A stretch of 64,000 nt of DNA from Chthoniobacteraceae bacterium. Lineage in GTDB: Bacteria; Verrucomicrobiota; Verrucomicrobiia; Chthoniobacterales; Chthoniobacteraceae. The DNA lies in assembly GCA_028293625.1 (NCBI GenBank), contig JAQGOL010000028.1, positions 1 to 64,000 of the forward strand, in the 5' to 3' direction. The translations under genes were made by a program, and so were the position numbers. Below are positions 3,421 to 14,527 of the stretch, piece by piece (position 1 is the first letter of the stretch; each line of letters starts with the position of its first letter). The notes below the pieces were generated by a model. It made no database searches. It saw only the letters and a list, made by a program, of their open reading frames with translations, and was not told where the DNA came from.

Positions 3421-4986
3421 TTAGCTTAAAGACGCTCTCAATTCCTCATACAGCACTTTTGCGTTATGCCTTTTGTCCACGGGAATCGTTTTGACGAATT
3501 TGATTTCGTCCAGCCCGGCCCATGCAAGTGAATCGATGAGCGCACGCTGCTCGACGGCCGAGAGCGCCGGCGCCGATTCCACGACCAGAATACGCTTTCC
3601 ATTCACGCTCAGTGTGGCACACCGGCGCGGATAGACTGAGCTCTGAGCGGCGCATTCCACCGTAAACGGGTATAGAAGGCCTTTTTTATCTTCGATTTTC
3701 GCGGCGCAGCGGCCAAGCAGCCAGAGGCGTCCCTTTTCATCAAAGCGGCCTGCATCCCCGGTTCGATGCCATGTAACGTCTTCGACGCGGATTTTTGTCT
3801 CTTTATTACCGGTGCCGTTAAGATAACCGCCGAGGACATGCGCACCGGACACAACAATTTCACCCCACTCACCAGTCCTGACGCGAGTGGCATCGAAATC
3901 GGTTTTTGAAAAGGGGCCCAATGGAGTTCCCCATCGATCAGGAACGATTCGCACGGCTATTTCAGATACAGGAGTGCCGGCAAGCAATCCGCTCCCATTC
4001 CCGATGGCGTCTAGTTCATCCGTACCGAGATCCCCCCAGGCAGCGTGTGCGATTGGCTCCGCTTCTGTGGAGCCGAATACAGCGACTACTTCCGCGGCCG
4101 GGGCAAGCGTTTGCAGTTGCCTGAGAAGTGGATGGAAAACAGGAGCGCCGCCGGTGAAGATCTTGGTAAAATACCGAAGTGCGCCGGGTTCGGCGCCTTC
4201 TGCGAGTCGGTGAAGAAACGCGGGGGAGGCGGCAGTCCGGGTAGGTTGATGGCGCGCTATTTGAGCAAAGATCGGTTTGGGGTCGACCGCGCCAGGCCTG
4301 CGCAGATCCGCGTCAGGGATAAGGCTTGTGACGCCGGAGCCGAGGTTAGCCAGGACAAAGATCGGGAGTGTGGTCAGATCGATTTCGCCTGGAAGCAGGG
4401 TGATGTTCTTTTCAAGCACCCGATGTTGGGCAAGTAGAAATTCGTGAGTTCTCAGCGCTGCTTTGGGCATCCCGGTGCTGCCACTGGTAAAAGTCACCAA
4501 TGCGGGCGTGCCGGGATCACATGGGGTAATTGGATCAAACGGGAGTTCCTTGCACGCACTACTCCAGGCGATCGCGCCGGGCAATGACCAGCCGATGACA
4601 TACTTGCGTGGAATCTTTCGGATGGCAGCCGATGTCAGCCTAAGCAAATGTGCTTTGGTGGAGGCGATGAAAGCTTTGGGCGGCACCATTTCACAACAGC
4701 GCTCAAGATGCGCGCGCCCGCTGGATGGATCAAGGAAGGTGGCAACTAGTCCCAGTCGAAATATGGCAAGTAAAGCGACATAGAGTTCAATCGACATCGG
4801 TTGGAAGATCAGCACCGCGTCGCCCATGCGCAGGCCCGAGGCTTTTAACAACTGAGCCGCGCGCGCTGAAGCTTCATCCAATTGCGCGAAGGTGATAATT
4901 TGGTCGCGACCATTTTTAGTTTCGATAATGGCGGGCGCGTCCGGGCGCTCTCTTGCCTGACAAAGAAGAACCTCGGTCACGTTCAT
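3421..4986 (-). CDS. AMP-forming acyl-CoA synthetase/ligase (ANL superfamily)
   Basis: A 521-residue adenylate-forming enzyme expected to activate a carboxylic acid with ATP, then pass it to CoA or another acceptor. Visible motifs are the phosphate loop TFTSGSTGMPKA near residue 167, a VFGSTEAEP segment in place of the usual YGxTE adenine-binding motif, HRTGDAGRFDEKGRLWLLGR (TGD and hinge) and a C-terminal lysine region around VDKRHNAKV. The N-terminus (LLCQARERPDAPAII) is typical. It is the last gene of the seven-gene operon, and its ATG overlaps the stop of the GNAT gene by ATGA (4983-4986), so translation is probably coupled. No acyl carrier protein is adjacent. The natural substrate is unknown; a fatty or isoprenoid acid is a guess from context. 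Confidence 0.85.
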   Translation of the reverse strand: MNVTEVLLCQARERPDAPAIIETKNGRDQIITFAQLDEASARAAQLLKASGLRMGDAVLIFQPMSIELYVALLAIFRLGLVATFLDPSSGRAHLERCCEMVPPKAFIASTKAHLLRLTSAAIRKIPRKYVIGWSLPGAIAWSSACKELPFDPITPCDPGTPALVTFTSGSTGMPKAALRTHEFLLAQHRVLEKNITLLPGEIDLTTLPIFVLANLGSGVTSLIPDADLRRPGAVDPKPIFAQIARHQPTRTAASPAFLHRLAEGAEPGALRYFTKIFTGGAPVFHPLLRQLQTLAPAAEVVAVFGSTEAEPIAHAAWGDLGTDELDAIGNGSGLLAGTPVSEIAVRIVPDRWGTPLGPFSKTDFDATRVRTGEWGEIVVSGAHVLGGYLNGTGNKETKIRVEDVTWHRTGDAGRFDEKGRLWLLGRCAAKIEDKKGLLYPFTVECAAQSSVYPRRCATLSVNGKRILVVESAPALSAVEQRALIDSLAWAGLDEIKFVKTIPVDKRHNAKVLYEELRASLS

Positions 4987-5873
4987 GAGAGCGACTTGGA
5001 AAAGAGTGTGTAGCGGCGCATCGTGGCTGCGTAATGGCCGCTCAGATTGCGGGAATTATTACTTTCATGCATGAGCGCATGGATGGCCCGCGTATAACCG
5101 AGCTGAGAAGCCGATTCCTGCATTTCCGCAAGTAGCAGTGTCCCCAGGCCGGCCATCTGTCGGCCAGGAAGGACGGCCAGCGACTTTGCAATCACGGTTT
5201 TTATCGGGAGCCCTGTTTTGGCTTCGGCGAAATCGGGCACGGCAAAGACAAAGCCAACGCATTTGAGTTGATCAAAAGCGAGCAGAACCAACTCGGGAAC
5301 AATTGCCTGCCGCACTGGCAGGTAAAGTGATTCAAACTCGGCGTAATCAATCGGGCTATAAAGGAAGTTTTTGTGAAAGCTTCCTATTGAGACCTCGTAA
5401 ATGTGGCGGAGTTCGTGCGCAAACTCAGCGAGTCGGATCGGCCGTATAATAATACCCGCCGATGCTATCCGATGACGCACTTTTTCAATGCGCGGATCCA
5501 TGTAGCCAAGATCGGGATTCAAAGCCGATGTATAGTTTGCGAGTGCGGAGAAGCCCGATGCCACAAAGTATCCGGGCCACTCAGGCGGATTGGTTGGCTC
5601 AAGAAAAAAAGGAGGTTCACTGCCGGCATCGGTAACCAGCCGATAGCTCTTCCATGTGCTGCCGTCCATGGGTCCGATGGCAATCGAGCAACCGTGCGCG
5701 GACAAATGGCGGCATGCTTCGCTCAAAAGGATTGAGGCTGATTCCGGATCGGTTGCGTGGAACTTGCCAATCAATCCGACTTGTTCGCCGGGCATGGATG
5801 GAGAGTTTGTCCACCATAGCGAGCAGTGCGCGCCGTTTGTTTCAGTTAGCACCAGATCCGGGGCTGCGCTCAT
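4983..5873 (-). CDS. GNAT-like N-acyltransferase
   Basis: Starting at the ATG at 5873 gives 296 residues. This start forms an ATGA overlap with the upstream kinase-like gene, so I prefer it to the start at 5939, which would add 22 residues inside that gene. The C-terminal half resembles the GNAT fold: a beta-4 like strand ELVLLAFDQLKCVGFVFAVP, a loop LPGRQMAGLGTLLLAEM in the acyl-CoA-binding motif A position, and a final helix-strand segment. The N-terminal half (GLIGKFHATDPESASILLSE, and AIGPMDGSTWKSYR) is like the large N-acyltransferase proteins that sit next to acyl-CoA ligases. The pairing suggests that the ligase activates an acid and this protein transfers the acyl group. The acceptor is unknown. 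Confidence 0.68.
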   Translation of the reverse strand: MSAAPDLVLTETNGAHCSLWWTNSPSMPGEQVGLIGKFHATDPESASILLSEACRHLSAHGCSIAIGPMDGSTWKSYRLVTDAGSEPPFFLEPTNPPEWPGYFVASGFSALANYTSALNPDLGYMDPRIEKVRHRIASAGIIIRPIRLAEFAHELRHIYEVSIGSFHKNFLYSPIDYAEFESLYLPVRQAIVPELVLLAFDQLKCVGFVFAVPDFAEAKTGLPIKTVIAKSLAVLPGRQMAGLGTLLLAEMQESASQLGYTRAIHALMHESNNSRNLSGHYAATMRRYTLFSKSLS

Positions 5874-7165
5874 AGAAGAAAATGGGGAATAAGACCTAAA
5901 GTGGAAACCACCGGGATACAGAGATTTTCGCGCAACCATTGTGCAAGCCCGGGGCTGGTGTCAGTCGTGCAAGGAAGAGAGGCGTTGTGCGCAAGTCCCG
6001 CAACGAGAATGATGATCGGTGCAGCGAGTGCCTCGATCACGGTGCGTGCCGTTATTGTGTCGATTAAGAGATAGGGGATAAAGAGGATCAACCATCCGCC
6101 AATCACACATTCCAATAAGGGGCGCCTTTGGAGGCTCGAGTTTGTGGCGAGCGCCCGCCGGGTAATACAGATTCCAGCCAGTTGGGCGCCAAGGGTAAGA
6201 TAGAAAAGATAGATGAGTTCCGGTCGTTTGAATTCAAGGGAGATCCCAAGCCAGAAAAGGGGTCCCGCCATGACACGGATGACGGTGTGGACGTTGCTTT
6301 CCCTTTTAATCTCGGGATGTAATGGGCTCAGTGACGGAAATGCCGCGAGGCCGATCAAGGGCGCCAGAAGCCATGGCAGGCCGCCCAGAGCCCAGGCAAC
6401 GTAACAAAGCATGCCTGCGCAGAGTGCGGCGCTGCCATTGAGCGTGGACCGGCGCCGTAGTGGAATGAGAAAAGCGGTAAGCAACACCATCACAACAAGG
6501 CGGACTGCCAGTTCAGTGACACTGAGCGTGACATATATCCGCAGCAGCAAATAGCTCGTTAGAGGAATAAAAAGGTTGTCGAGTCCGCCCCAGGCGATTG
6601 CTTCCATCAACATCACCAGAAAGCCGAGCGCGATACTAATCAGCAGGATTTCGGCCCGGCCAATAGTAGTAAAAAGAAGGAGCGGAATATGTGTGCTGAA
6701 AAAAGCGATTAAAAAAAAGGCCAATGAGCCTTCAACCGACTTTTCGCCTTCATTTGTCCGGTACTTGGAGAGCCCGTATCGGAGTCCGATAAGCGCGCAG
6801 ACGGCGTCAGCGAGGGAAAGGATCAGGATAGGGATGCAGAAAAGGAGCTTATCGCCACGGGCAAGCCAAAATACAATGGCCACGGCAATAGGGAAGTAGA
6901 GTTCGCCCAGCGAGAAGCGTTTTACGCCTCCGAGTACGTTTCCAAGTTGCGCTTTGATCGGGCTTAAAAGCCGCACGGCAAGCAAGGCGACAACGGCCAG
7001 AACAGCCAATAAGGTAACAGGCCAGCTTTCCTGGAAGACCCACGGAAACGTGAGCGTGACCAGACCCATGCCAACGTGCATACCTTTGCGCACCAGTTCA
7101 GGGTGCGGCGACATTCGGCGTTGGATCAGAGCCATGCCACCCATCAGGGAGCCAAGGAGAGCCAT
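5870..7165 (-). CDS. Dolichol/phytol kinase-like polytopic membrane protein with C-terminal extension
   Basis: A 431-residue protein that is almost entirely membrane helices. The first half resembles the SEC59/VTE5/DGK1 family of CTP-dependent lipid alcohol kinases, itself related to CDP-diglyceride synthases: HPELVRKGMHVGMGLVTLTF at residue 21 matches the family's 'R.xxH' opening, and LADAVCALIGLRYGLSKY followed by GEKSVEGSLAFF near residue 125-150 is the CTP-binding 'DaxaaxxGxxxGk...gKTxeGs' motif. The remaining 200 residues add about six more helices that I cannot assign. The start at 7165 lies 26 bases after the BtaA-like gene. In context it could phosphorylate a prenol or diacylglycerol. 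The substrate is inferred, not shown. Confidence 0.68.
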   Translation of the reverse strand: MALLGSLMGGMALIQRRMSPHPELVRKGMHVGMGLVTLTFPWVFQESWPVTLLAVLAVVALLAVRLLSPIKAQLGNVLGGVKRFSLGELYFPIAVAIVFWLARGDKLLFCIPILILSLADAVCALIGLRYGLSKYRTNEGEKSVEGSLAFFLIAFFSTHIPLLLFTTIGRAEILLISIALGFLVMLMEAIAWGGLDNLFIPLTSYLLLRIYVTLSVTELAVRLVVMVLLTAFLIPLRRRSTLNGSAALCAGMLCYVAWALGGLPWLLAPLIGLAAFPSLSPLHPEIKRESNVHTVIRVMAGPLFWLGISLEFKRPELIYLFYLTLGAQLAGICITRRALATNSSLQRRPLLECVIGGWLILFIPYLLIDTITARTVIEALAAPIIILVAGLAHNASLPCTTDTSPGLAQWLRENLCIPVVSTLGLIPHFLL

Positions 7166-7191
7166 GACTCCCAGAATGCCGACAGCGGGAT

Positions 7192-8289
7192 TCAGATAAC
7201 CTCCTCCACCACAAACGCGCTGTAGAAAAATGCACGATCCCGGCCGTGCAACTCTTTACCTAGAAGCTCGTGGGAACGCAGTTTTTGGGACATGGATTCA
7301 GGCCGGCGCCGTGGAGCCAGCATGTTCCAATAAGCAAGCCGCGCGCCCGGTTTTGCGGCGGTTACCAGTTTCTCGAGGAAAAGCCGGGAATTTTCCTCCG
7401 ACATGTATTCAAATATATCGCTAAGATTGAAGCGATCGATTGAGTTGGGGCCATTTTCCTCGAGAAGTTGCTCGGCAGGCTGGCAGCGCCATTCAAGGCG
7501 ATCGAGGTTTGCGCGAATAAGATCGAAGTTTTCCGGCCGCAGCGCGCACGGCAACGCTGTCGTGTGGGTGCCTGTTAAAATCCACTGGAGATAGGGATTG
7601 TCAGCAGGGTTCAACTCGGTGAGCGCGTAGCTGGTTCGCGCAAGAATCCGATCACCGACGCTTCCCTCCACATACCGGAAGAAACTCGGATCGCGTCCCA
7701 TGTGGCCCATGACAAAGCGCGAGAAAAAGAGTTTAAAAAGAATCCGCCATCGCCAGGTATCCCAGTTCTCGTCGTAAAAACTTTGGCGTTGAAGCGCGCT
7801 TCCTCCTTTGAGCAGTTGCTCGATTCGGCTTCGAGAATGGATCCAAGGCAGGACTTTTTCGCGGAACAAGGCGAAGTAGCGCTCAAACTTCCCTGCGCTG
7901 CCTATCCCATTTATAATTGCCTGCTGGTTGTGGTCCCAGAAGTCGCGAACGCCGCTGGCTAAAAGGGGGCGGCACTTGAGATAATGGTCGACGCGGTGGC
8001 TACTCTGTTTGGAGCCGATTAATTCAAGCAGTTGTGGATGGCTAAGTGCGCGGTACGCGGCGACCCTTAGTTCAAGACAGGCTAGCTGCGAGGGATTGAG
8101 ATCAATGGCGATGACCCGGGCGGGGGAGCGCGTTAGGAGCGCAAGTGCGTTGTCCCCGGCGGACGCGATGGAAAGGCAGGTGTCGCCGGGTTGGATATCG
8201 AGCGCGTCGAGAAGGATATCGGCATCTTCCCAGACCTGCGCATAACGGATCTGGGTGAAATCGGCGTGGTGTGCAGCTTCGCTATTCAT
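7192..8289 (-). CDS. BtaA-like (DUF3419) S-adenosylmethionine 3-amino-3-carboxypropyl transferase
   Basis: A 365-residue protein of the DUF3419 family, whose characterised member BtaA moves the aminocarboxypropyl group of S-adenosylmethionine to diacylglycerol to give the homoserine lipid precursor of betaine lipids. The N-terminal signature YAQVWEDADILLDALDI is followed by the nucleotide-binding loop LSIASAGDNALALL (residues 39-52) and AIDLNPSQ. The central GKFERYFALFREKVLPWIHS and the late LSDIFEYMSEENSR are also family hallmarks. Its start overlaps the end of the PEP-utilising gene by 8 bases. No BtaB-type N-methyltransferase is in the operon, so the product may stay unmethylated or the acceptor may not be diacylglycerol. 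Confidence 0.8.
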   Translation of the reverse strand: MNSEAAHHADFTQIRYAQVWEDADILLDALDIQPGDTCLSIASAGDNALALLTRSPARVIAIDLNPSQLACLELRVAAYRALSHPQLLELIGSKQSSHRVDHYLKCRPLLASGVRDFWDHNQQAIINGIGSAGKFERYFALFREKVLPWIHSRSRIEQLLKGGSALQRQSFYDENWDTWRWRILFKLFFSRFVMGHMGRDPSFFRYVEGSVGDRILARTSYALTELNPADNPYLQWILTGTHTTALPCALRPENFDLIRANLDRLEWRCQPAEQLLEENGPNSIDRFNLSDIFEYMSEENSRLFLEKLVTAAKPGARLAYWNMLAPRRRPESMSQKLRSHELLGKELHGRDRAFFYSAFVVEEVI

Positions 8290-10816
8290 GTGGGATGCGG
8301 CGAACGAGACCGGTTGAACCGTCTAGTTCGACCATGTCTCCGTCTTGGAGGATAAGCGTTAGGTTGCTAATAGAGACAACGGCCGGGATACCAAGCTCTC
8401 TTGCCACAATGGCGGAGTGCGACAACAGGCTTCCAAACTCAACCAACAGCCCCGCGGCGGACGGGAATAGCATGATCCAGCCAGGATCGGTGCGTTGCGC
8501 CACCAGGATCTCGCCGGGTTTGATTTCAGCTCCCCGTGGCTCAAGGATCACTCGGACGATACCGCGCACGATTCCCGGGCAGCAACCAATACCCTGGAGT
8601 TGTTCAGTCGCTATGAGAGAAGAACTATCCTTTTTTTCAGAAAGATAAGTGTTGCCGCTGTTGACCGTGCCGCGCGTTACAAAACGCTCGGACGGTGCTG
8701 TGCCATTCCTGTGCCCGTCAAATTCCGCCTGTCGCAGGGCGGCAAGTCCGCGCAGGTTCTTCCCGACCGTGGTGCCTTCCACAAACCCGAGCGCTTCCTC
8801 CACCGTGAGATTAAAAATATCCGAAGGATGATCAAGCACGCCGAGTTCGAGATAGCGTTTGCCTAGTTCCAGGAAAATCCGGCGCACGCGTCCGAAAAGA
8901 CGGGTTCTTTCAAAGCGGAGGTTTTCCCGGTCGCGAACCCTGGCGCGTGCATGTTTCAGGATCCAAAAGAAGAAAGTGCCTTTTAAAGGATTGCCGCGCA
9001 AGGCTTCCTTCACGCGCGCCTCTGTTTGGCCGCGGTGGTTATCGGCTGGAATGTGCTCTGCCGGCTTGCGTGCCGCGAGATGGCCAACGGCGCGAAATAA
9101 AGAGAGCGGATCGTCGTGGAGCGTTTTGCTTTCAAGCTTGAGTTCTTCAAGGCAGCGGTCGCCGAACTTCTCAATATAGGCATTGTAAAGGGCATTAAAT
9201 CTAGCGTGCTGGACAAGCTTGGCGTTGATCTCGCGCAGGGAACCGCGGCCTAAAAGATTGGCCAGTTCCGGAGAAAGCGCCGCCACTTCCGCCATCTCCC
9301 GGACACGCCGGGCGGGTTCAGCGCTGATCATTTCGCCTCCGGCGCAAAGCAAATCGTTTTGAAGGCTGCCATTCGCGTCGCCGCACCATTTTTGCGCTAG
9401 CCGTTTGGAGACGCCATAGAAGATCATCGCCAGGAAGTCATTGACCAGTGGCGCGTCCCATCGGGTGAGCAACTGTTTTTCCAGATCGCGATAGGCGCCT
9501 GCCAGCTGGTCCGGCCTCATTTCTTCAAGTGCCGGGCTCGGTTCCTTAAGGGAGTCATTGAGCCGGGCATGGAAACGTTTGATGTTAGCCGGAAGGCGAA
9601 GATGATTTGAAATCAGGCCGATTACCGTGCGGCCAATATCGAGTGCATCCTTTAGCTTTTCGGCTGGAGTAGAAGGGAGCTTGATGGGAAGCGCACCCTC
9701 GGGGAGCCCCTCTTTGACGCCCATCATTTGCTCCATGAACTGGCTGTTAATTTTGTAGCCCGGCAACAACGCCAATACACGATACCAGTTTAGCAGATTG
9801 TAGTAGACGCGTCCGTTGATGAGGCCGAGCATTCGCTGAAAGGTATCCCGGTTATCGGCGATCCTGGAGGTAGGGACACCCATGAGCTTGCAGAACTGCC
9901 GGTAGACCTCCTCATAGATGCCACGCGCAAATGAGAATGTGAGCGGAGTGGTGATGCCGCTGTAGCTTTCGGCAATGTTGCTGTTATCCCAGAGGTTAAA
10001 TGCGCCCGAGGGATCGACCATGTTGCGCAAGGAGGTAATTGGCCGCGATTGGAGAAGGAAAAGTTTGTCATCCTCGCGCGCCCATTCGATATCCTGCGGA
10101 ATGCCAAAGTAACGATTCGCGCGCCGCGCAAGTTCGCGAATTTCCTGTGCCTGCGGCGTCGTTAAAACGGGCGTTTCGGCGCCGTTTGATTGGGAGAGTG
10201 AAACTAGCTTGCCGGTGGAATCGATATGGTAGGTGTCAGCATTCTCCTCGCCGGAAACCAGCTTATCCCCAAGACCGCGCACAGCCGCGATCACTGTCAT
10301 ATCGCGGCGCCCGGTCACGGGGTCGGCGCCGAAAGCGACCCCGGCGCTCCCGGCATTAATCATTCGTTGTATCAGAACAGCCGGGGCACCCGTCCGCGCG
10401 GAAGAAAGGCCTCGTTCTCTTCGATAAGCGAGTACGCGCTCGCTAAATGCCGACCGCCAGACTGCGGCGACTTTGGCGGCTACTTCCGTGGCGGGAACTA
10501 AAAGGTAGCTTTCAAATTGACCGGCAAAGGAATGTTCGCTGCCATCTTCATCGAGCGCGGAGGAGCGGACTGCGAAGGTGGCCGCTTCCGGAATGGCGTT
10601 GCCTAGCGCGGCTTCGATTTCCCTGATGACTCTGGCGCAAGGAAGTGCGGGGAGGGTAGCCGCTCCATTGGCGCTGGCCTCAAAGGAGGCGGGGAGCACA
10701 ACGAACCATTCCGGGACACTAAATCCAGCTTCATGGAGTTGAGCCAGGGCGCGCGCTTTTCCGCCTAGTAATGGCGCCTGGGATGGTTCGAGTGAAAAGG
10801 CAATGAATTCGGACAT
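8282..10816 (-). CDS. PEP-utilising ATP-dependent phosphotransferase, rifampin phosphotransferase (RPH)-like
   Basis: The ATG at 10816 gives 844 residues; a TTG six bases upstream is less likely. Domain order: an ATP-grasp pyruvate-phosphate-dikinase domain (residues 1-265; GGKARALAQLHEAGFSVPEW, FAVRSSALDEDGSEHSFAGQ, IEWAREDDKLFLLQSRP), a long helical middle (about 280-690) of the kind that binds the substrate in RPH, and a C-terminal swivelling domain with the phosphohistidine loop GSLLSHSAIVARELGIPAVV. There is no TIM-barrel PEP-binding domain after the histidine domain, so this is not a PEP synthase or PPDK. RPH enzymes phosphorylate a hydroxyl of a small molecule with ATP, giving AMP and phosphate. 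The substrate is presumably an intermediate of this operon's pathway. Confidence 0.78.
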   Translation of the reverse strand: MSEFIAFSLEPSQAPLLGGKARALAQLHEAGFSVPEWFVVLPASFEASANGAATLPALPCARVIREIEAALGNAIPEAATFAVRSSALDEDGSEHSFAGQFESYLLVPATEVAAKVAAVWRSAFSERVLAYRRERGLSSARTGAPAVLIQRMINAGSAGVAFGADPVTGRRDMTVIAAVRGLGDKLVSGEENADTYHIDSTGKLVSLSQSNGAETPVLTTPQAQEIRELARRANRYFGIPQDIEWAREDDKLFLLQSRPITSLRNMVDPSGAFNLWDNSNIAESYSGITTPLTFSFARGIYEEVYRQFCKLMGVPTSRIADNRDTFQRMLGLINGRVYYNLLNWYRVLALLPGYKINSQFMEQMMGVKEGLPEGALPIKLPSTPAEKLKDALDIGRTVIGLISNHLRLPANIKRFHARLNDSLKEPSPALEEMRPDQLAGAYRDLEKQLLTRWDAPLVNDFLAMIFYGVSKRLAQKWCGDANGSLQNDLLCAGGEMISAEPARRVREMAEVAALSPELANLLGRGSLREINAKLVQHARFNALYNAYIEKFGDRCLEELKLESKTLHDDPLSLFRAVGHLAARKPAEHIPADNHRGQTEARVKEALRGNPLKGTFFFWILKHARARVRDRENLRFERTRLFGRVRRIFLELGKRYLELGVLDHPSDIFNLTVEEALGFVEGTTVGKNLRGLAALRQAEFDGHRNGTAPSERFVTRGTVNSGNTYLSEKKDSSSLIATEQLQGIGCCPGIVRGIVRVILEPRGAEIKPGEILVAQRTDPGWIMLFPSAAGLLVEFGSLLSHSAIVARELGIPAVVSISNLTLILQDGDMVELDGSTGLVRRIPHE

Positions 10817-10822
10817 GATCAA

Positions 10823-11728
10823 TTACTGGCAGAGAGTGCGGATGAGCATTGGGACAGCGCCGAGAGCCAGATACATGGTGAGCGTCCAAACTCCGGCGAA
10901 CAGTTCGAAGCGTTTCCCGCTTTTGGGTGACCGCAAAAACGAGAGAGAAATAATCAGCGCCAATCCGACCAGAAGCGTGAGGAGCAGCAAGATGGGCCGG
11001 GCAAAGCTGATATGGGTGGCGGCAATGGAAGCGCTTGCAGCGGTTGCCACCAGGATAAGCAGCCAGGCGCGGATCGACGTGGCGGCGCCCCATTGCGCGC
11101 TGTAGGTTGGCACCCCGGGTTCTTCATCCTGAGGTGCGCGGATTTTGCGTCCGATCTCAATGACGATGCCGTTGAAAAAGCTGACAATTAAAAACCAGAT
11201 CAGCCCGCGTGGCAATGAAGCGCCGGCCACGGTCCAATCGCATGCGGTGGCGTATAGATCGACCAACGGCATGATGAGCATGTGAGTCCAAAGATAGGTG
11301 ACTGGCCGGGCTTTCAGCCAATCGCGCGCAAAGAACTCCTGGGTCATCAAAAAGAGGTAGGCCCACGCGATGGCAAGCACCCAGATCAGCGCCGGTTTAA
11401 GCCAAAGCGCGAGGCCCGCTTGAATCGCCGCCGTGAGCGCCCATAGCCAGCCAAGTTCCCGGAGGCTGATCAGTCCGCGCGGGACGGGCCGGTAAGGGCG
11501 GTAAAGCGAATCCTCTTCGAAATCTTTAAATTCATCGGCAATGCGAAGCTGAAGAAAAAAGAAGAGCGAAGTAATGAAGGCGACCAGGCAGGAGCGCCAA
11601 TCGGGGAAATGAATGCTGCCGCGCAGGAGGGCCGAGAAGCTCACGGCGGATAAGCTGAACGCGGCTATGAGCGGTCCATGGGCGAGGATTGGGAAACGCT
11701 CGCGTTGATAGATCCACCATTTGTTCAT
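10823..11728 (-). CDS. UbiA superfamily prenyltransferase
   Basis: A 301-residue integral membrane protein with about eight to nine helices. The first Asp-rich motif is intact: LRIADEFKDFEEDSLYRPYR then PVPRGLIS, which holds the Mg-diphosphate Asp residues and the basic loop. The second motif region reads EIGRKIRAPQDEEPGVPTYS, with the acidic cluster and the tyrosine-serine end. This type attaches a prenyl diphosphate to an acceptor in the membrane. The gene follows HMG-CoA reductase with an ATGA overlap (11725-11728) and precedes the phosphotransferase by six bases. The acceptor cannot be read from the sequence; quinone, haem or chlorophyll genes are not adjacent, which argues against a routine role in those pathways. 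Confidence 0.83.
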   Translation of the reverse strand: MNKWWIYQRERFPILAHGPLIAAFSLSAVSFSALLRGSIHFPDWRSCLVAFITSLFFFLQLRIADEFKDFEEDSLYRPYRPVPRGLISLRELGWLWALTAAIQAGLALWLKPALIWVLAIAWAYLFLMTQEFFARDWLKARPVTYLWTHMLIMPLVDLYATACDWTVAGASLPRGLIWFLIVSFFNGIVIEIGRKIRAPQDEEPGVPTYSAQWGAATSIRAWLLILVATAASASIAATHISFARPILLLLTLLVGLALIISLSFLRSPKSGKRFELFAGVWTLTMYLALGAVPMLIRTLCQ

Positions 11729-12999
11729 GGCTGGGTTCCCCGTGCCAGTTTTGCGTGGGCACCTGTGAATTGATGGGCGCTGAGTGCGGCGATGATTGAG
11801 ATTTCACCGGCAAGCGCCAGTGCGGCGGCTACTTCGGCAAAGGCCCGGGCGTGCCCGGTGCCATTCAAACCGAGCAGTTCCAAACAAGCGGATTGACTTG
11901 GCAGCTTGGTACCGCCGCCCACCGTGCCGACAATCAGGTTGGGGAGAGTAACCGCGGCATAGAGACTGTTATCCGGGAGCGCTTCGAACCTTGTAATTCC
12001 AACGGCTGACTCGGAAACGCAGGCGGCATCCTGGCCCGTGGCAATGTAAAGGGCAGCCAGACCGTTTGCGTAATGGCCCTGGACGCCGATGGTGCCGCTA
12101 AGGACGCCGCCAAGCGCCGACATGCGCCAGTAGTTTTCCATGGCACGCGCCGTTGTATGAAGCCGTCGCGCGATCAGTTCGGCTGACAGGTTTACTTCCG
12201 CTGAAATTTTTCGGCCGCGCACCGATTGAAACGATTGGGCGCTGGCTTTCTTGTCGCCGGAGAAGTTGGATTCGACAAAAAAGTAGTCGGGAGTTACGGG
12301 GGTATGCACCTTGATAAAATCGCAGATGGCCTGGGTGGCAATGGTCACCATGTTTTGACCAGCCGCATCCCCTGTAAGAAACTCAAAGTTAAGGTAGACA
12401 TGATTGCCTTCCACGGTCACCCGCATATCGGCAAGCTTGCCGTGCCGGGTAGTCGCTTCGGCTTCTATTTTGAACGCGTCGATTTGGGAAAGCGCCCATG
12501 TAATAAAAACGCCGACGTCAATCAGCGACTTGAATGCAAATCCCGGAGCGCGGCTGACTCCTTCCGCCAACAGTAACGCGGTGCATCCTCCCGACTCGCT
12601 AATGACAATGGCCCCTCTGTGATAGGAGGCAACCAGCGCGGCTTCCGTGGTTGCCAGCGGGAGGTAGTAATCGCCCTGCGCATGAAGTCCGTTGACGCGC
12701 AGCGGCCCGGCGATTCCAACCGGGATTTTTACGGTGCCGATGAAGTTCTCAATGTTGCCACCGTAAGCCGCGTGCCGTTCACGCGTTTTCGGATCAAACA
12801 ATTCATCCCTGCACTGGTTGGAGTTTGGAAGAAGCTTCCATCGGCGCTCGACCGCCTCGGGGTTGCTTAAAGAAGCGCCCGGCACACGCGGCGGCAGCTT
12901 GGTTGTCTTGCTACTAAGAAGATTCCTGAGCGTTTCCTCCGTGGCATCTTCGAACATCCGCTTGAGATGAGCGCCGACACTTTGTGAATTCGTTGGCAT
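11725..12999 (-). CDS. Class I hydroxymethylglutaryl-CoA reductase
   Basis: A catalytic-domain-only HMG-CoA reductase of 424 residues from the ATG at 12999; a GTG at 13020 would add seven residues. It makes mevalonate from HMG-CoA with NADPH. Clear class I signatures are ENFIGTVKIPVGIAGPL, LPLATTEAALVASYHRG (catalytic Glu), TGDAAGQNMVTIAT (NADPH and catalytic Asp), LPNLIVGTVGGGT, and the C-terminal LALAGEISIIAALSAHQF with the late catalytic His. There is no membrane anchor. It is the first gene of the seven-gene operon, with a 210-base leader containing a strong hairpin. No other mevalonate-pathway gene is in the window. Either it feeds a local isoprenoid pathway or it is a second, pathway-dedicated copy. 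Confidence 0.93.
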   Translation of the reverse strand: MPTNSQSVGAHLKRMFEDATEETLRNLLSSKTTKLPPRVPGASLSNPEAVERRWKLLPNSNQCRDELFDPKTRERHAAYGGNIENFIGTVKIPVGIAGPLRVNGLHAQGDYYLPLATTEAALVASYHRGAIVISESGGCTALLLAEGVSRAPGFAFKSLIDVGVFITWALSQIDAFKIEAEATTRHGKLADMRVTVEGNHVYLNFEFLTGDAAGQNMVTIATQAICDFIKVHTPVTPDYFFVESNFSGDKKASAQSFQSVRGRKISAEVNLSAELIARRLHTTARAMENYWRMSALGGVLSGTIGVQGHYANGLAALYIATGQDAACVSESAVGITRFEALPDNSLYAAVTLPNLIVGTVGGGTKLPSQSACLELLGLNGTGHARAFAEVAAALALAGEISIIAALSAHQFTGAHAKLARGTQP

Positions 13000-13107
13000 A
13001 AACTCGGGCGAGCGTAGCACGAAGGAGTTCCATGGCGTTTGCTTTTTTAATGGCTCATAAAAAGGCGCGTAAACAACTGGGGCCGCATGTCCATTTCACA
13101 GCTGGCA

Positions 13108-13210: not shown

Positions 13211-14527
13211 TCACTGTTCAAGGGGAGGCTGCTCGCCGACACGCCCGGTTTTGCGGTCGACAATATATTCCGAATAGTCGGCCGCAAGACGCGCGGACAG
13301 GAAAACCACGATACGGACGCCGTCGTCGAGATATTCGGTTTCGAGAATCTTCGCGGCACGATGGAGTCGGGCGACAACGTCGGCGGCGCTGCTTGGCAGA
13401 CGCAACTCATAGACAGCGGAACCGTCGGAAGCATACTCGCTGATCCGTTCCACCAAGGCGTCAATCCCAGTCCCGTTATAGATCGAAATAAACTGCGCAT
13501 CAGGAAAATGGCGGCGCAGATTGGCAATGATGGCTGGATCTTCAACCTTATCGATCTTGTTGAAGACGACGAGCATATGCTTAGGCTCGGCGCCGAGTTC
13601 CTTAAGCACCTTCATGGTCGTGTTATAGAACTCCATGACCTCGGGCTGTGACGCATCGAGAAGGTGAATCAGGAAGTCGGCAATGACGGCTTCCTCCAGG
13701 GTGGCGTTGAACGCTTCAATGAGCCGATGGGGGAGCTTGCGTACAAATCCGACGGTGTCGGTCAACAGGAGCGGCTGATTGTTGGGTAACTCAATTTTGC
13801 GAGTCGTGGTATCGAGCGTGGCAAATAGCTTGTCTTCAATAAAGACATCGGCACCCGTGAGCCGGCGAAGAAGGGATGATTTGCCTGAGTTCGTATAGCC
13901 GACAATCGCGGCATTGGGGACGGGAGTGCGCTGGCGATCTTTTCTTTGGGTGGCACGCGAGGAGCGGACCTCCTTGAGCTCGTCTTTGCAACGCAGGATG
14001 GCATTTCGGATACGGCGTTTATCCTGTTCAAGCTGCGATTCGCCTTCGCCGCGGCCGCCGATTCCGCCGCCTTGCCGAGCCAGATGTCCCCACGCCCTTG
14101 TCAGGCGGGGAAGAGAGTATTCGAGTTTGGCTAGTTCGACCTGGAGCCGGGCTTCGCGGGTCTGGGCGCGTTTGCCAAAGATATCGAGAATAACTTCCTG
14201 CCGATCGATAACGGCGACTCCGGGCGCGATTTTTTCCCAGTTTCGCTGCTGACTGGGAGTCAGATCGTTGTCGAAAATGATGACATCGAGTTTGTGTTCA
14301 AGGGCGTGCGCGGCGATCTCCTCGGCCTTGCCCGAGCCGATGAGAAATTTGGCGTGTTGTTCGCGATGAAACACGAGCATTCGTTCAATGACGGGAATGC
14401 CAAGGGTGTCGACAAGTTCTTCCAATTCCGCGAGCAGGCTTTCGGTTTCCGCCTTGGCGGAGGAATCGATATAGGCGCCGACCAGCAACGCCCGCTGCAC
14501 CATTTTGGTTTCGTGGTTATCTAACAT
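13211..14527 (-). CDS. hflX: GTPase HflX
   Basis: A 438-residue ribosome-associated GTPase that splits stalled or hibernating 70S ribosomes. The N-terminal nucleotide-binding domain contains VIIFDNDLTPSQQRNWEK and VIDRQEVILDIFGKRAQTRE. The glycine-rich linker GGGIGGRGEGESQLEQDKRR is diagnostic. The G domain has a P-loop GYTNSGKSSLLRRL near residue 211, a G3 DTVGFVRKLPHRLIEAF, and a G4 NKID. The C-terminal domain has the normal length. It stands alone on the minus strand between the HMG-CoA reductase operon and the sugar transporter. An internal ATG nine codons in is an alternative start. Confidence 0.95.
   Translation of the reverse strand: MLDNHETKMVQRALLVGAYIDSSAKAETESLLAELEELVDTLGIPVIERMLVFHREQHAKFLIGSGKAEEIAAHALEHKLDVIIFDNDLTPSQQRNWEKIAPGVAVIDRQEVILDIFGKRAQTREARLQVELAKLEYSLPRLTRAWGHLARQGGGIGGRGEGESQLEQDKRRIRNAILRCKDELKEVRSSRATQRKDRQRTPVPNAAIVGYTNSGKSSLLRRLTGADVFIEDKLFATLDTTTRKIELPNNQPLLLTDTVGFVRKLPHRLIEAFNATLEEAVIADFLIHLLDASQPEVMEFYNTTMKVLKELGAEPKHMLVVFNKIDKVEDPAIIANLRRHFPDAQFISIYNGTGIDALVERISEYASDGSAVYELRLPSSAADVVARLHRAAKILETEYLDDGVRIVVFLSARLAADYSEYIVDRKTGRVGEQPPLEQ

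Follow-up and report, generated by a model that had tools for sequence, protein, structure and literature searches.

The 64,000-nt window analyzed here, the whole stretch of DNA under study, lies on contig JAQGOL010000028.1 of a Chthoniobacteraceae bacterium and carries an operon of seven genes on the minus strand (span 3421-13020). In the order of transcription, these genes encode an HMG-CoA reductase (HMGR)-like protein, a UbiA-superfamily protein, a phosphoenolpyruvate (PEP)-synthase-like phosphotransferase (abbreviated PPS, for gene and protein), a DUF3419 protein, a putative kinase, a GNAT protein, and an AMP-forming ligase. The same genes recur in the same order under many phylum titles, and the set as a whole points to a single pathway, probably to a lipid.

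11725..12999, minus strand: HMGR-like gene, probably for an FcrA-type fatty acyl-CoA reductase (HMG-CoA reductase superfamily, class I; PF00368, 372 bits)
10823..11728, minus strand: UbiA-superfamily membrane protein, second motif altered (PF01040, 55.3 bits, cut-off 34.2)
8282..10816, minus strand: PEP-synthase/Rph/PigC-like phosphotransferase with ATP-grasp and swivelling His domains (PPDK_N, 161 bits; PEP-utilizers, 84 bits)
7192..8289, minus strand: DUF3419 (BtaA-like) protein resembling S-adenosylmethionine (SAM)-dependent aminocarboxypropyl transferases (PF11899, 240.9 bits, cut-off 28.2)
5870..7165, minus strand: membrane protein with many helices, a putative CTP-dependent alcohol kinase of the same kind as phytol/dolichol kinases and DUF92 (no Pfam match)
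4983..5939, minus strand: tandem GNAT N-acyltransferase, as predicted from a GNAT domain over the Pfam cut-off and the fold of its model
3421..4986, minus strand: AMP-forming fatty acid ligase, ANL family (PF00501, 173.9 bits)

The Pfam cut-offs were passed for HMG-CoA_red, UbiA, PPDK_N, PEP-utilizers, DUF3419, AMP-binding, and the GNAT domain. The HMGR-like and UbiA genes share an ATGA overlap at 11725-11728, the PPS and DUF3419 genes overlap by 8 bases (8282-8289), and the GNAT and ligase genes overlap by 4 bases (4983-4986). The kinase and GNAT genes also overlap by 4 bases if the GNAT start is the internal Met at 5873 (the longest GNAT frame reaches 5939). With the Met codon at 10816 as the start of PPS, whose frame is readable from a TTG at 10822, 6 bases separate PPS from UbiA; 26 bases (7166-7191) lie between DUF3419 and the kinase. 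The longest frame of the HMGR-like gene opens at a GTG at 13020. Because the Met at residue 8 of this frame was nearly invariant in an alignment of 50 proteins, the ATG present at 12999 is most likely the start rather than this GTG. With that start corrected, the layout confirms the first-pass annotation, which had described seven minus-strand genes at these positions with these overlaps and gaps.

The DUF3419 protein was searched against 288 genomes of the window's phylum. Matches were found in 29 genomes, 18 of which held a close relative (at least 256 bits), and the remaining matches scored at most 73 bits. A profile of the 18 close proteins retrieved at least 458 relatives from the named genome collection, and the best 80 were kept as loci; the neighborhoods described below are those of these 80, to the exclusion of weaker relatives. 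Their record titles include Verrucomicrobia, Planctomycetota, Cyanobacteria, Gammaproteobacteria, Rhodothermales, Desulfobulbus, and Anaerolineales, as well as Acidobacteria, Gemmatimonadetes, Trueperaceae, Nitrospirae, Armatimonadota, Brevibacillus, and others. Most of the 80 are metagenome-assembled genomes (MAGs), whose titles may be wrong and whose bins may be mixed. Loci not titled as MAGs include those of Methylomonas sp. SURF-1 (L072), Alkalilimnicola ehrlichii (L086), Desulfobulbus rhabdoformis DSM 8777 (L088), Microcoleus sp. FACHB-1515 (L071), and Brevibacillus laterosporus (L117).

Gene presence in a locus was scored by the best tblastn match anywhere in it (E 1e-6), a count that may include distant paralogues and genes truncated where a contig ends. 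All seven genes were present in 41 of the 80 loci, 31 times in the order of the window and 10 times with GNAT-ligase moved to the front. Among the 42 loci that reach at least 6 kb upstream and at least 5 kb downstream of DUF3419, 32 had seven genes, two had six, and eight had five or fewer. A third order, HMGR-DUF3419-kinase-GNAT-ligase-UbiA-PPS, was seen in some members of the same phylum (L039, L040). Neighboring genes overlapped or touched in 53 of 75 PPS-DUF3419 pairs, 41 of 61 UbiA-PPS pairs, 38 of 54 GNAT-ligase pairs, and 30 of 50 HMGR-UbiA pairs, and UbiA and PPS were adjacent in 61 of the 80 loci with a median overlap of 4 bases.

Since the 80 loci had been found through DUF3419, single-gene searches of the 288 genomes were made with other genes, namely kinase, UbiA, GNAT, and HMGR. 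The kinase matched in exactly the 18 genomes with a close DUF3419 protein and in no other, UbiA (at least 76 bits) in the same 18 and in G157, and GNAT (at least 99 bits) in 17 of the 18, being absent in G056. HMGR of the operon type (above 330 bits) was found in 12 of the 18 carriers and nowhere else, and 46 further genomes had the canonical type only. The hypergeometric p values for co-occurrence with DUF3419, which ignore shared ancestry, were 6e-29 for the kinase, 1e-27 for UbiA, 2e-26 for GNAT, and 3e-17 for operon-type HMGR. The recurrence in the same order under many phylum titles, together with the common distribution, is more than chance. The first-pass annotation had proposed the genes as one linked set, and the conserved order and shared distribution bear this out more strongly than first stated.

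Scattering of the genes among unrelated neighborhoods in relatives was also examined and was not the general pattern, although the genes lie apart in some genomes. In G189, six of them were found on six contigs (DUF3419 on C52, HMGR-like on C63, GNAT on C4, UbiA on C21, kinase on C80, and PPS on C49). In two cyanobacteria (L070 and L055), the locus showed DUF3419 alone, and elsewhere in the genome there were a close PPS (953 and 962 bits) and an HMGR scoring as operon type (383 and 381 bits). The sole UbiA relative at the operon level outside the 18 carriers (G157:C42:47157-48017, 133 bits) lies in a genome in which the 288-genome searches gave no close DUF3419 and no kinase match, and in which the best PPS piece scored 88 bits.

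Measured on the best tblastn segment, the window's DUF3419 protein shared 54-66% identity with its counterparts in nine records bearing cyanobacterial or Melainabacteria titles (62-66% in seven of the nine) and 39-58% with those in 17 loci from its own phylum sample. Identity is thus out of step with taxonomy, which points to horizontal spread of the operon. A 137 kb plasmid of Roseinatronobacter sp. S2 (NZ_CP121116.1; L176:523-8507) carries UbiA-PPS-DUF3419-hypothetical-hypothetical-AMP-binding in the operon's order, with no HMGR-like gene annotated adjoining this set. A scan of viral contigs gave no match.

The HMGR-like protein had been read at first as a source of mevalonate. In total, 54 operon-type proteins (including that of L157) and 22 canonical HMGRs were aligned and are described in human residue numbering, in which we take the lysine printed as Lys795 in PMC11948995 to be the position otherwise numbered Lys735. 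The catalytic Glu559, Lys691, Asp767, and His866 were identical in all 76 proteins (54/54 operon-type), and the equivalents of Arg590 and Lys692 were kept in 54/54 operon-type proteins. However, all 54 had Glu at the position of Ser684, lacked the Lys of the HMG pocket, and had Phe (Phe418) at the position of Leu862, whereas 22/22 canonical proteins had Ser, Lys, and Leu there. In a midpoint-rooted tree with no characterized FcrA included, the two groups split with 100/100 support.

FcrA is a characterized fatty acyl-CoA reductase that does not reduce HMG-CoA, according to PMC11948995 (2025). Its specificity may be explained by changes at three positions: Glu in place of Ser684, usually small residues in place of the Lys, and a bulky residue in place of Leu862. 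The same source reports FcrA from Halobacteriales and Ca. Promineifilum breve and finds that fcrA is less closely associated with wax ester synthase than is another reductase; the terms UbiA, gene cluster, and phosphoenolpyruvate do not occur in its main text.

The genomes carrying the operon were also searched for mevalonate-pathway families (L088 was left out of those for HMG-CoA synthase and HMGR, and of the genome search for PPS; G189 was left out of that for HMG-CoA synthase). HMG-CoA synthase (PF08540) had no match in 17 of 21 carriers and none in the window's own genome (96.4% complete), and the four carriers with a match all had a canonical HMGR as well. DXR, of the methylerythritol phosphate pathway, was found in 17 of 22 carriers, and the five without it (G012, G015, G056, G159, and G189) each own a second, canonical HMGR. 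The mevalonate kinase model matched in 20 of 22 carriers, over its cut-off in two, and carries little weight alone because it is unspecific; Pfam revealed no mevalonate kinase among the seven genes. After the searches for HMG-CoA synthase, HMGR, DXR, and mevalonate kinase, mevalonate supply by the operon was rejected. Judging from the residue signature, the separation from canonical HMGRs, and these searches, the HMGR-like protein is probably not a mevalonate enzyme, and the mevalonate step of the first-pass annotation is best replaced by a putative formation of fatty alcohol.

The other six proteins were examined for conserved residues, family matches, and folds. The alignment counts given for them refer to length-filtered, stop-free sequences, window included (UbiA 72, PPS 77, ligase 64, and DUF3419 94 rows); L033 and L128 are apparently one contig (both are 108,411 long), and L033 was omitted. 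In DUF3419, S43, G45, and N47 were invariant (94/94), a stretch that we presume to bind SAM. A BtaB-like methyltransferase was found neither among the seven proteins nor among three scanned neighbors in the window, the genome not having been searched for BtaB, and the BtaAB betaine-lipid reading was set aside because no such protein is among the seven. The window's genome holds a second, distant DUF3419 protein (L050:9166-10269, on G000:C43; 23% identity). Its Pfam-matching neighbors are a GTPase, a multi-PAS histidine kinase, and a DUF4142 protein, and given these neighbors it was not called BtaA.

The model of the GNAT protein (pLDDT 91.9) consists of two GNAT folds in one chain, resembling the tandem GNAT 7q3a (Z 20.3, root-mean-square deviation (rmsd) 3.7, 265 aligned residues) and mycothiol synthase 2c27 (Z 18.3, rmsd 3.2, 244 aligned), while its sequence profile found no convincing solved relative. 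Five of 54 homologues matched N-myristoyltransferase (best E 8.5e-6), which fits a long-chain acyl donor. The ligase scored 356.8 bits against NCBIfam PRK09274 (cut-off 478) and about 207 bits against olefin beta-lactone synthetases, and its C-terminal R506, H507, and K510 were kept in 64 of 64 aligned ligases.

In UbiA, the residues R62, D65, E66, K68, and D69, which we take to form the first Asp-rich motif, were present in 72/72 proteins, as was R80. The second Asp-rich motif of UbiA prenyltransferases is DxxxD. Here, it is replaced in the second loop by E191 (71/72), R194, K195, and E202 (72/72), giving the pattern E..RK......E. The prenylated product suggested by the first-pass annotation is accordingly unproven, the UbiA protein being without that second motif. 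In PPS, the ATP-grasp residues Q243, D244, E246, and Q258 and the phospho-carrier His802 were kept in 77/77 proteins, and for this reason PPS is probably an active ATP-dependent phosphotransferase or ligase. It scored below the cut-offs of all listed NCBIfam models, namely PRK06241.2-2, a PEP-synthase-named model (741.7 bits, cut-off 883), RedH (296.8, cut-off 1350), PigC (287.6, cut-off 1300), and Rph (257.1, cut-off 999).

The window's kinase protein had no Pfam match. Among 55 homologues, seven matched DUF92 (best E 0.0022), six DUF2339 (best E 2.3e-5), and one TIGR00297. Its model (pLDDT 92.5) matched CdsA 4q2e (Z 8.1, rmsd 4.8, 161 aligned), tied with the membrane pyrophosphatase 8b24 (Z 8.1), a result that is indecisive for a helical protein; its alignment profile found no solved structure at E 1, and Foldseek found none at E 0.001. 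The roles proposed for UbiA, PPS, and the kinase are the least certain of all.

Eight flank families recur in at least three loci, and members of four were identified (P450, ABC ATPase, MMPL, and SnoaL). One family lies beside the operon in six loci (L117:15031-16380, L107:15001-16365, L084:18356-19630, L124:12452-14191, L038:14498-15868, and L059:2433-3728), in five of which the gene is within 120 bases of the operon or inside it; the two members scanned with Pfam, those of L117 and L107, are cytochromes P450. Another family lies in or adjoining the operon in five loci (L081:7857-10004, L094:12509-14785, L102:3729-5996, L129:2607-7276 with two copies, and L130:7215-9539), and the three members scanned (L081, L094, and L130) are MMPL-type exporters. 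In the window itself, hflX (13211-14527) lies upstream of the operon. Downstream, past a small frame and on the operon's strand, a second, weakly UbiA-like frame was found at 923-1813 (27.6 bits, cut-off 34.2), whose protein had no relative in the compared loci at the E-values used, and short frames at 1919-2500 resemble transposon remains. A promoter and terminator scan gave nothing at the operon's upstream end; at the downstream end, it gave five promoter-like matches and one terminator-like match, with no terminator on the operon's strand.

On balance, we lean toward the view that the operon encodes the pathway for an undescribed lipid, derived from fatty alcohol, probably bearing homoserine, and N-acylated, and that this pathway has spread horizontally. 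A lipid setting is suggested by the gene family in five loci whose three scanned members are MMPL-type exporters, the two membrane enzymes, and the N-myristoyltransferase matches of the GNAT relatives. The individual reactions and the product are assigned from what is known of the families. The ligase would convert a fatty acid to acyl-CoA, and the FcrA-type reductase, as its residues and clade suggest and as has been shown elsewhere for FcrA, would reduce acyl-CoA to fatty alcohol with NADPH. The kinase may then phosphorylate a long-chain alcohol, most simply this fatty alcohol. The DUF3419 protein is predicted to take the 3-amino-3-carboxypropyl group from SAM and place it on a lipid acceptor, which would thereby gain a homoserine head, and the tandem GNAT would acylate the homoserine amine using acyl-CoA made by the ligase. 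At its simplest, the end product would be an N-acyl O-alkyl homoserine lipid. UbiA and PPS, an adjacent and often overlapping pair, may attach another group or perform the alkyl transfer. The first-pass annotation had already suggested a single pathway, probably to a lipid, in which an acid is activated, an acyl group is transferred, and a protein resembling aminocarboxypropyl transferases takes part, and this portion of it is supported.

Several observations weigh against this reading. The FcrA-type gene is missing from six of the 18 phylum carriers, although in two of these draft genomes (G004 and G275) DUF3419 lies close to the end of its contig; four carriers of the phylum have neither an HMGR-like gene nor a visible substitute. 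Among 13 genomes picked because their locus lacked an HMGR-like gene, three had one elsewhere and 10 had none. The alcohol step would therefore often be dispensable or supplied otherwise, and a candidate substitute was seen only in L061, L066, and L067. In the reductase itself, the position of the lost Lys is Met in 39 of 54 proteins, compared with the generally small residues described in PMC11948995, and in 39 of 54 an Arg stands one place before it, adjoining a one-residue alignment gap. A BtaB-like methyltransferase is not among the seven, and the kinase is assigned tentatively, from family motifs and weak matches. Finally, a plain N-acyl O-alkyl homoserine would require neither UbiA nor PPS. 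The product is therefore probably larger and more elaborate, since two or three enzymes would otherwise be unused.

Two of the loci with a candidate substitute share a variant arrangement (L061:4637-9920 and L066:4659-9928), in which the genes between PPS and DUF3419 encode a fusion protein, another PPS-like protein, and a SnoaL-like protein, and tblastn revealed no FcrA or kinase gene in either locus. In L061, whose fusion was the one tested, the first half of the protein belongs to the class III aminotransferases and resembles CrmG and PigE, and the second half resembles a long-chain acyl-acyl carrier protein reductase (6jzq, E 5.6e-12). L067 holds the later part of this variant set and L068 its second PPS and SnoaL genes. 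No HMGR-family gene was found anywhere in the genomes of L061, L066, and L067, which are drafts. It seems that one fatty-acyl reductase was swapped for another, with an amine replacing the alcohol; such a swap would be expected if the operon's reductase acts on a fatty chain, and it counts in favor of the main reading.

A bolder form of the favored reading gives UbiA and PPS a definite task: the UbiA-type enzyme would transfer a saturated fatty-alkyl group, activated by the kinase and PPS, to SAM-derived homoserine that is acylated by GNAT. The products would be glycerol-free ether aminolipids, a new class of membrane lipid passed as one module between distant phyla. This specific proposal is quite unlikely.

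A related but separate explanation is a route like phytol salvage, in which the kinase and PPS make an alkyl phosphate and diphosphate and UbiA alkylates an acceptor bearing the aminocarboxypropyl and acyl groups, through an ether or C-alkyl bond. Plants run phytol to phytyl phosphate to phytyl diphosphate and on to UbiA enzymes, and seven of 55 kinase homologues weakly match DUF92, which we take to be the family of the plant phytyl-phosphate kinase. The close pairing of UbiA with PPS in 61 of the 80 loci agrees with such a route, and a UbiA protein with its second motif altered in this way would be suited to an unusual donor. However, a saturated alkyl diphosphate ionizes poorly compared with allylic donors, we know of no UbiA enzyme that uses one, and L061 and L066 retain UbiA and PPS without the kinase. 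We regard this explanation as unlikely.

More doubtful still is a small secreted natural product, such as an alkylated amino acid or a pigment-like compound, for which PPS would be a PigC/RedH-type ligase and no membrane lipid would be made. PPS does score higher against RedH (297 bits) and PigC (288 bits) than against rifamycin phosphotransferase (257 bits), the P450-containing family stands beside the operon in six loci, and the variant locus has a PigE-like aminotransferase. But its score against the PEP-synthase-named model is far larger (742 bits), all listed cut-offs are missed, and the identified flank families (P450, ABC ATPase, MMPL, and SnoaL), several others being unidentified, bring no genes for pyrrole or peptide synthesis.

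A mevalonate-derived, prenylated aminolipid, in which HMGR would make mevalonate for a dedicated isoprenoid attached by UbiA, is very improbable: the catalytic residues of HMGR and the first UbiA motif are intact (the latter in 72/72), but the HMG-binding Ser and Lys are replaced in 54/54, HMG-CoA synthase is unmatched in 17/21 carriers, DXR is present in 17/22 with a separate canonical HMGR in the other five, the seven genes include no mevalonate kinase, and FcrA, which has the same Glu and likewise lacks the Lys, leaves HMG-CoA unreduced according to PMC11948995.

The gene set is conserved and is without description in the searched literature, which excludes most subscription papers and preprints. 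No paper joining these families in one pathway was found there, in agreement with the first-pass annotation, which knew of no described pathway with this set, and none of the papers naming DUF3419 is titled on such an operon. In its available text, the lipocone paper (PMC12419801) describes other operons. A multi-gene pathway kept together under many phylum titles without a named product in the searched papers is rare. The FcrA family, described in 2025 as often found apart from wax ester synthase (PMC11948995), gains a concrete second context. The fatty-alcohol reading also suggests why bacteria without a mevalonate pathway carry an 'HMG-CoA reductase', and if it holds, annotating these genes as mevalonate genes is misleading. 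Methylomonas, Alkalilimnicola, Desulfobulbus, and Microcoleus include cultured bacteria that carry most or all of the genes, in which the lipid can be searched for directly.

Compared with known systems, the window protein shares with FcrA (PMC11948995) membership of the class I HMGR family, the catalytic Glu, Lys, Asp, and His, the change of Ser684 to Glu, and the loss of the HMG-binding Lys, although in the operon type this position is mostly Met. Both have a bulky residue in place of Leu862 (Phe in the operon type, Trp in FcrA), and both occur in genomes without a mevalonate pathway. The tested FcrA enzymes carry an N-terminal Lad domain, for which the window protein (431 aa) has no room, and the window gene also differs in belonging to an operon of seven genes, none of which encodes a wax ester synthase. 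With the BtaA/BtaB betaine lipid pathway, the operon has in common the DUF3419 family of BtaA (PF11899 over its cut-off), although the operon proteins form a subfamily apart from the phylum's distant DUF3419 proteins, with about 21-27% identity. PPS has its ATP-grasp and phospho-His domains in common with Rph, PigC, and PEP synthase; unlike them, it has a conserved middle region, and it falls below their NCBIfam cut-offs. Phytol salvage by VTE5, VTE6, and ChlG/VTE2 likewise combines an alcohol kinase, a second phosphorylation, and a UbiA transfer, but in the operon the second phosphorylation would be made by a PPS-like enzyme, the chain would come from fatty alcohol, and the second UbiA motif is altered. 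Ornithine lipids are made by OlsB and OlsA, and in these and related N-acyl amino-acid lipids, the N-acylation of the amino-acid head is the analogous step. If the reading favored here is right, the operon would differ from them in using a tandem GNAT, an amino acid that SAM supplies, and an alkyl chain that a fatty alcohol provides.

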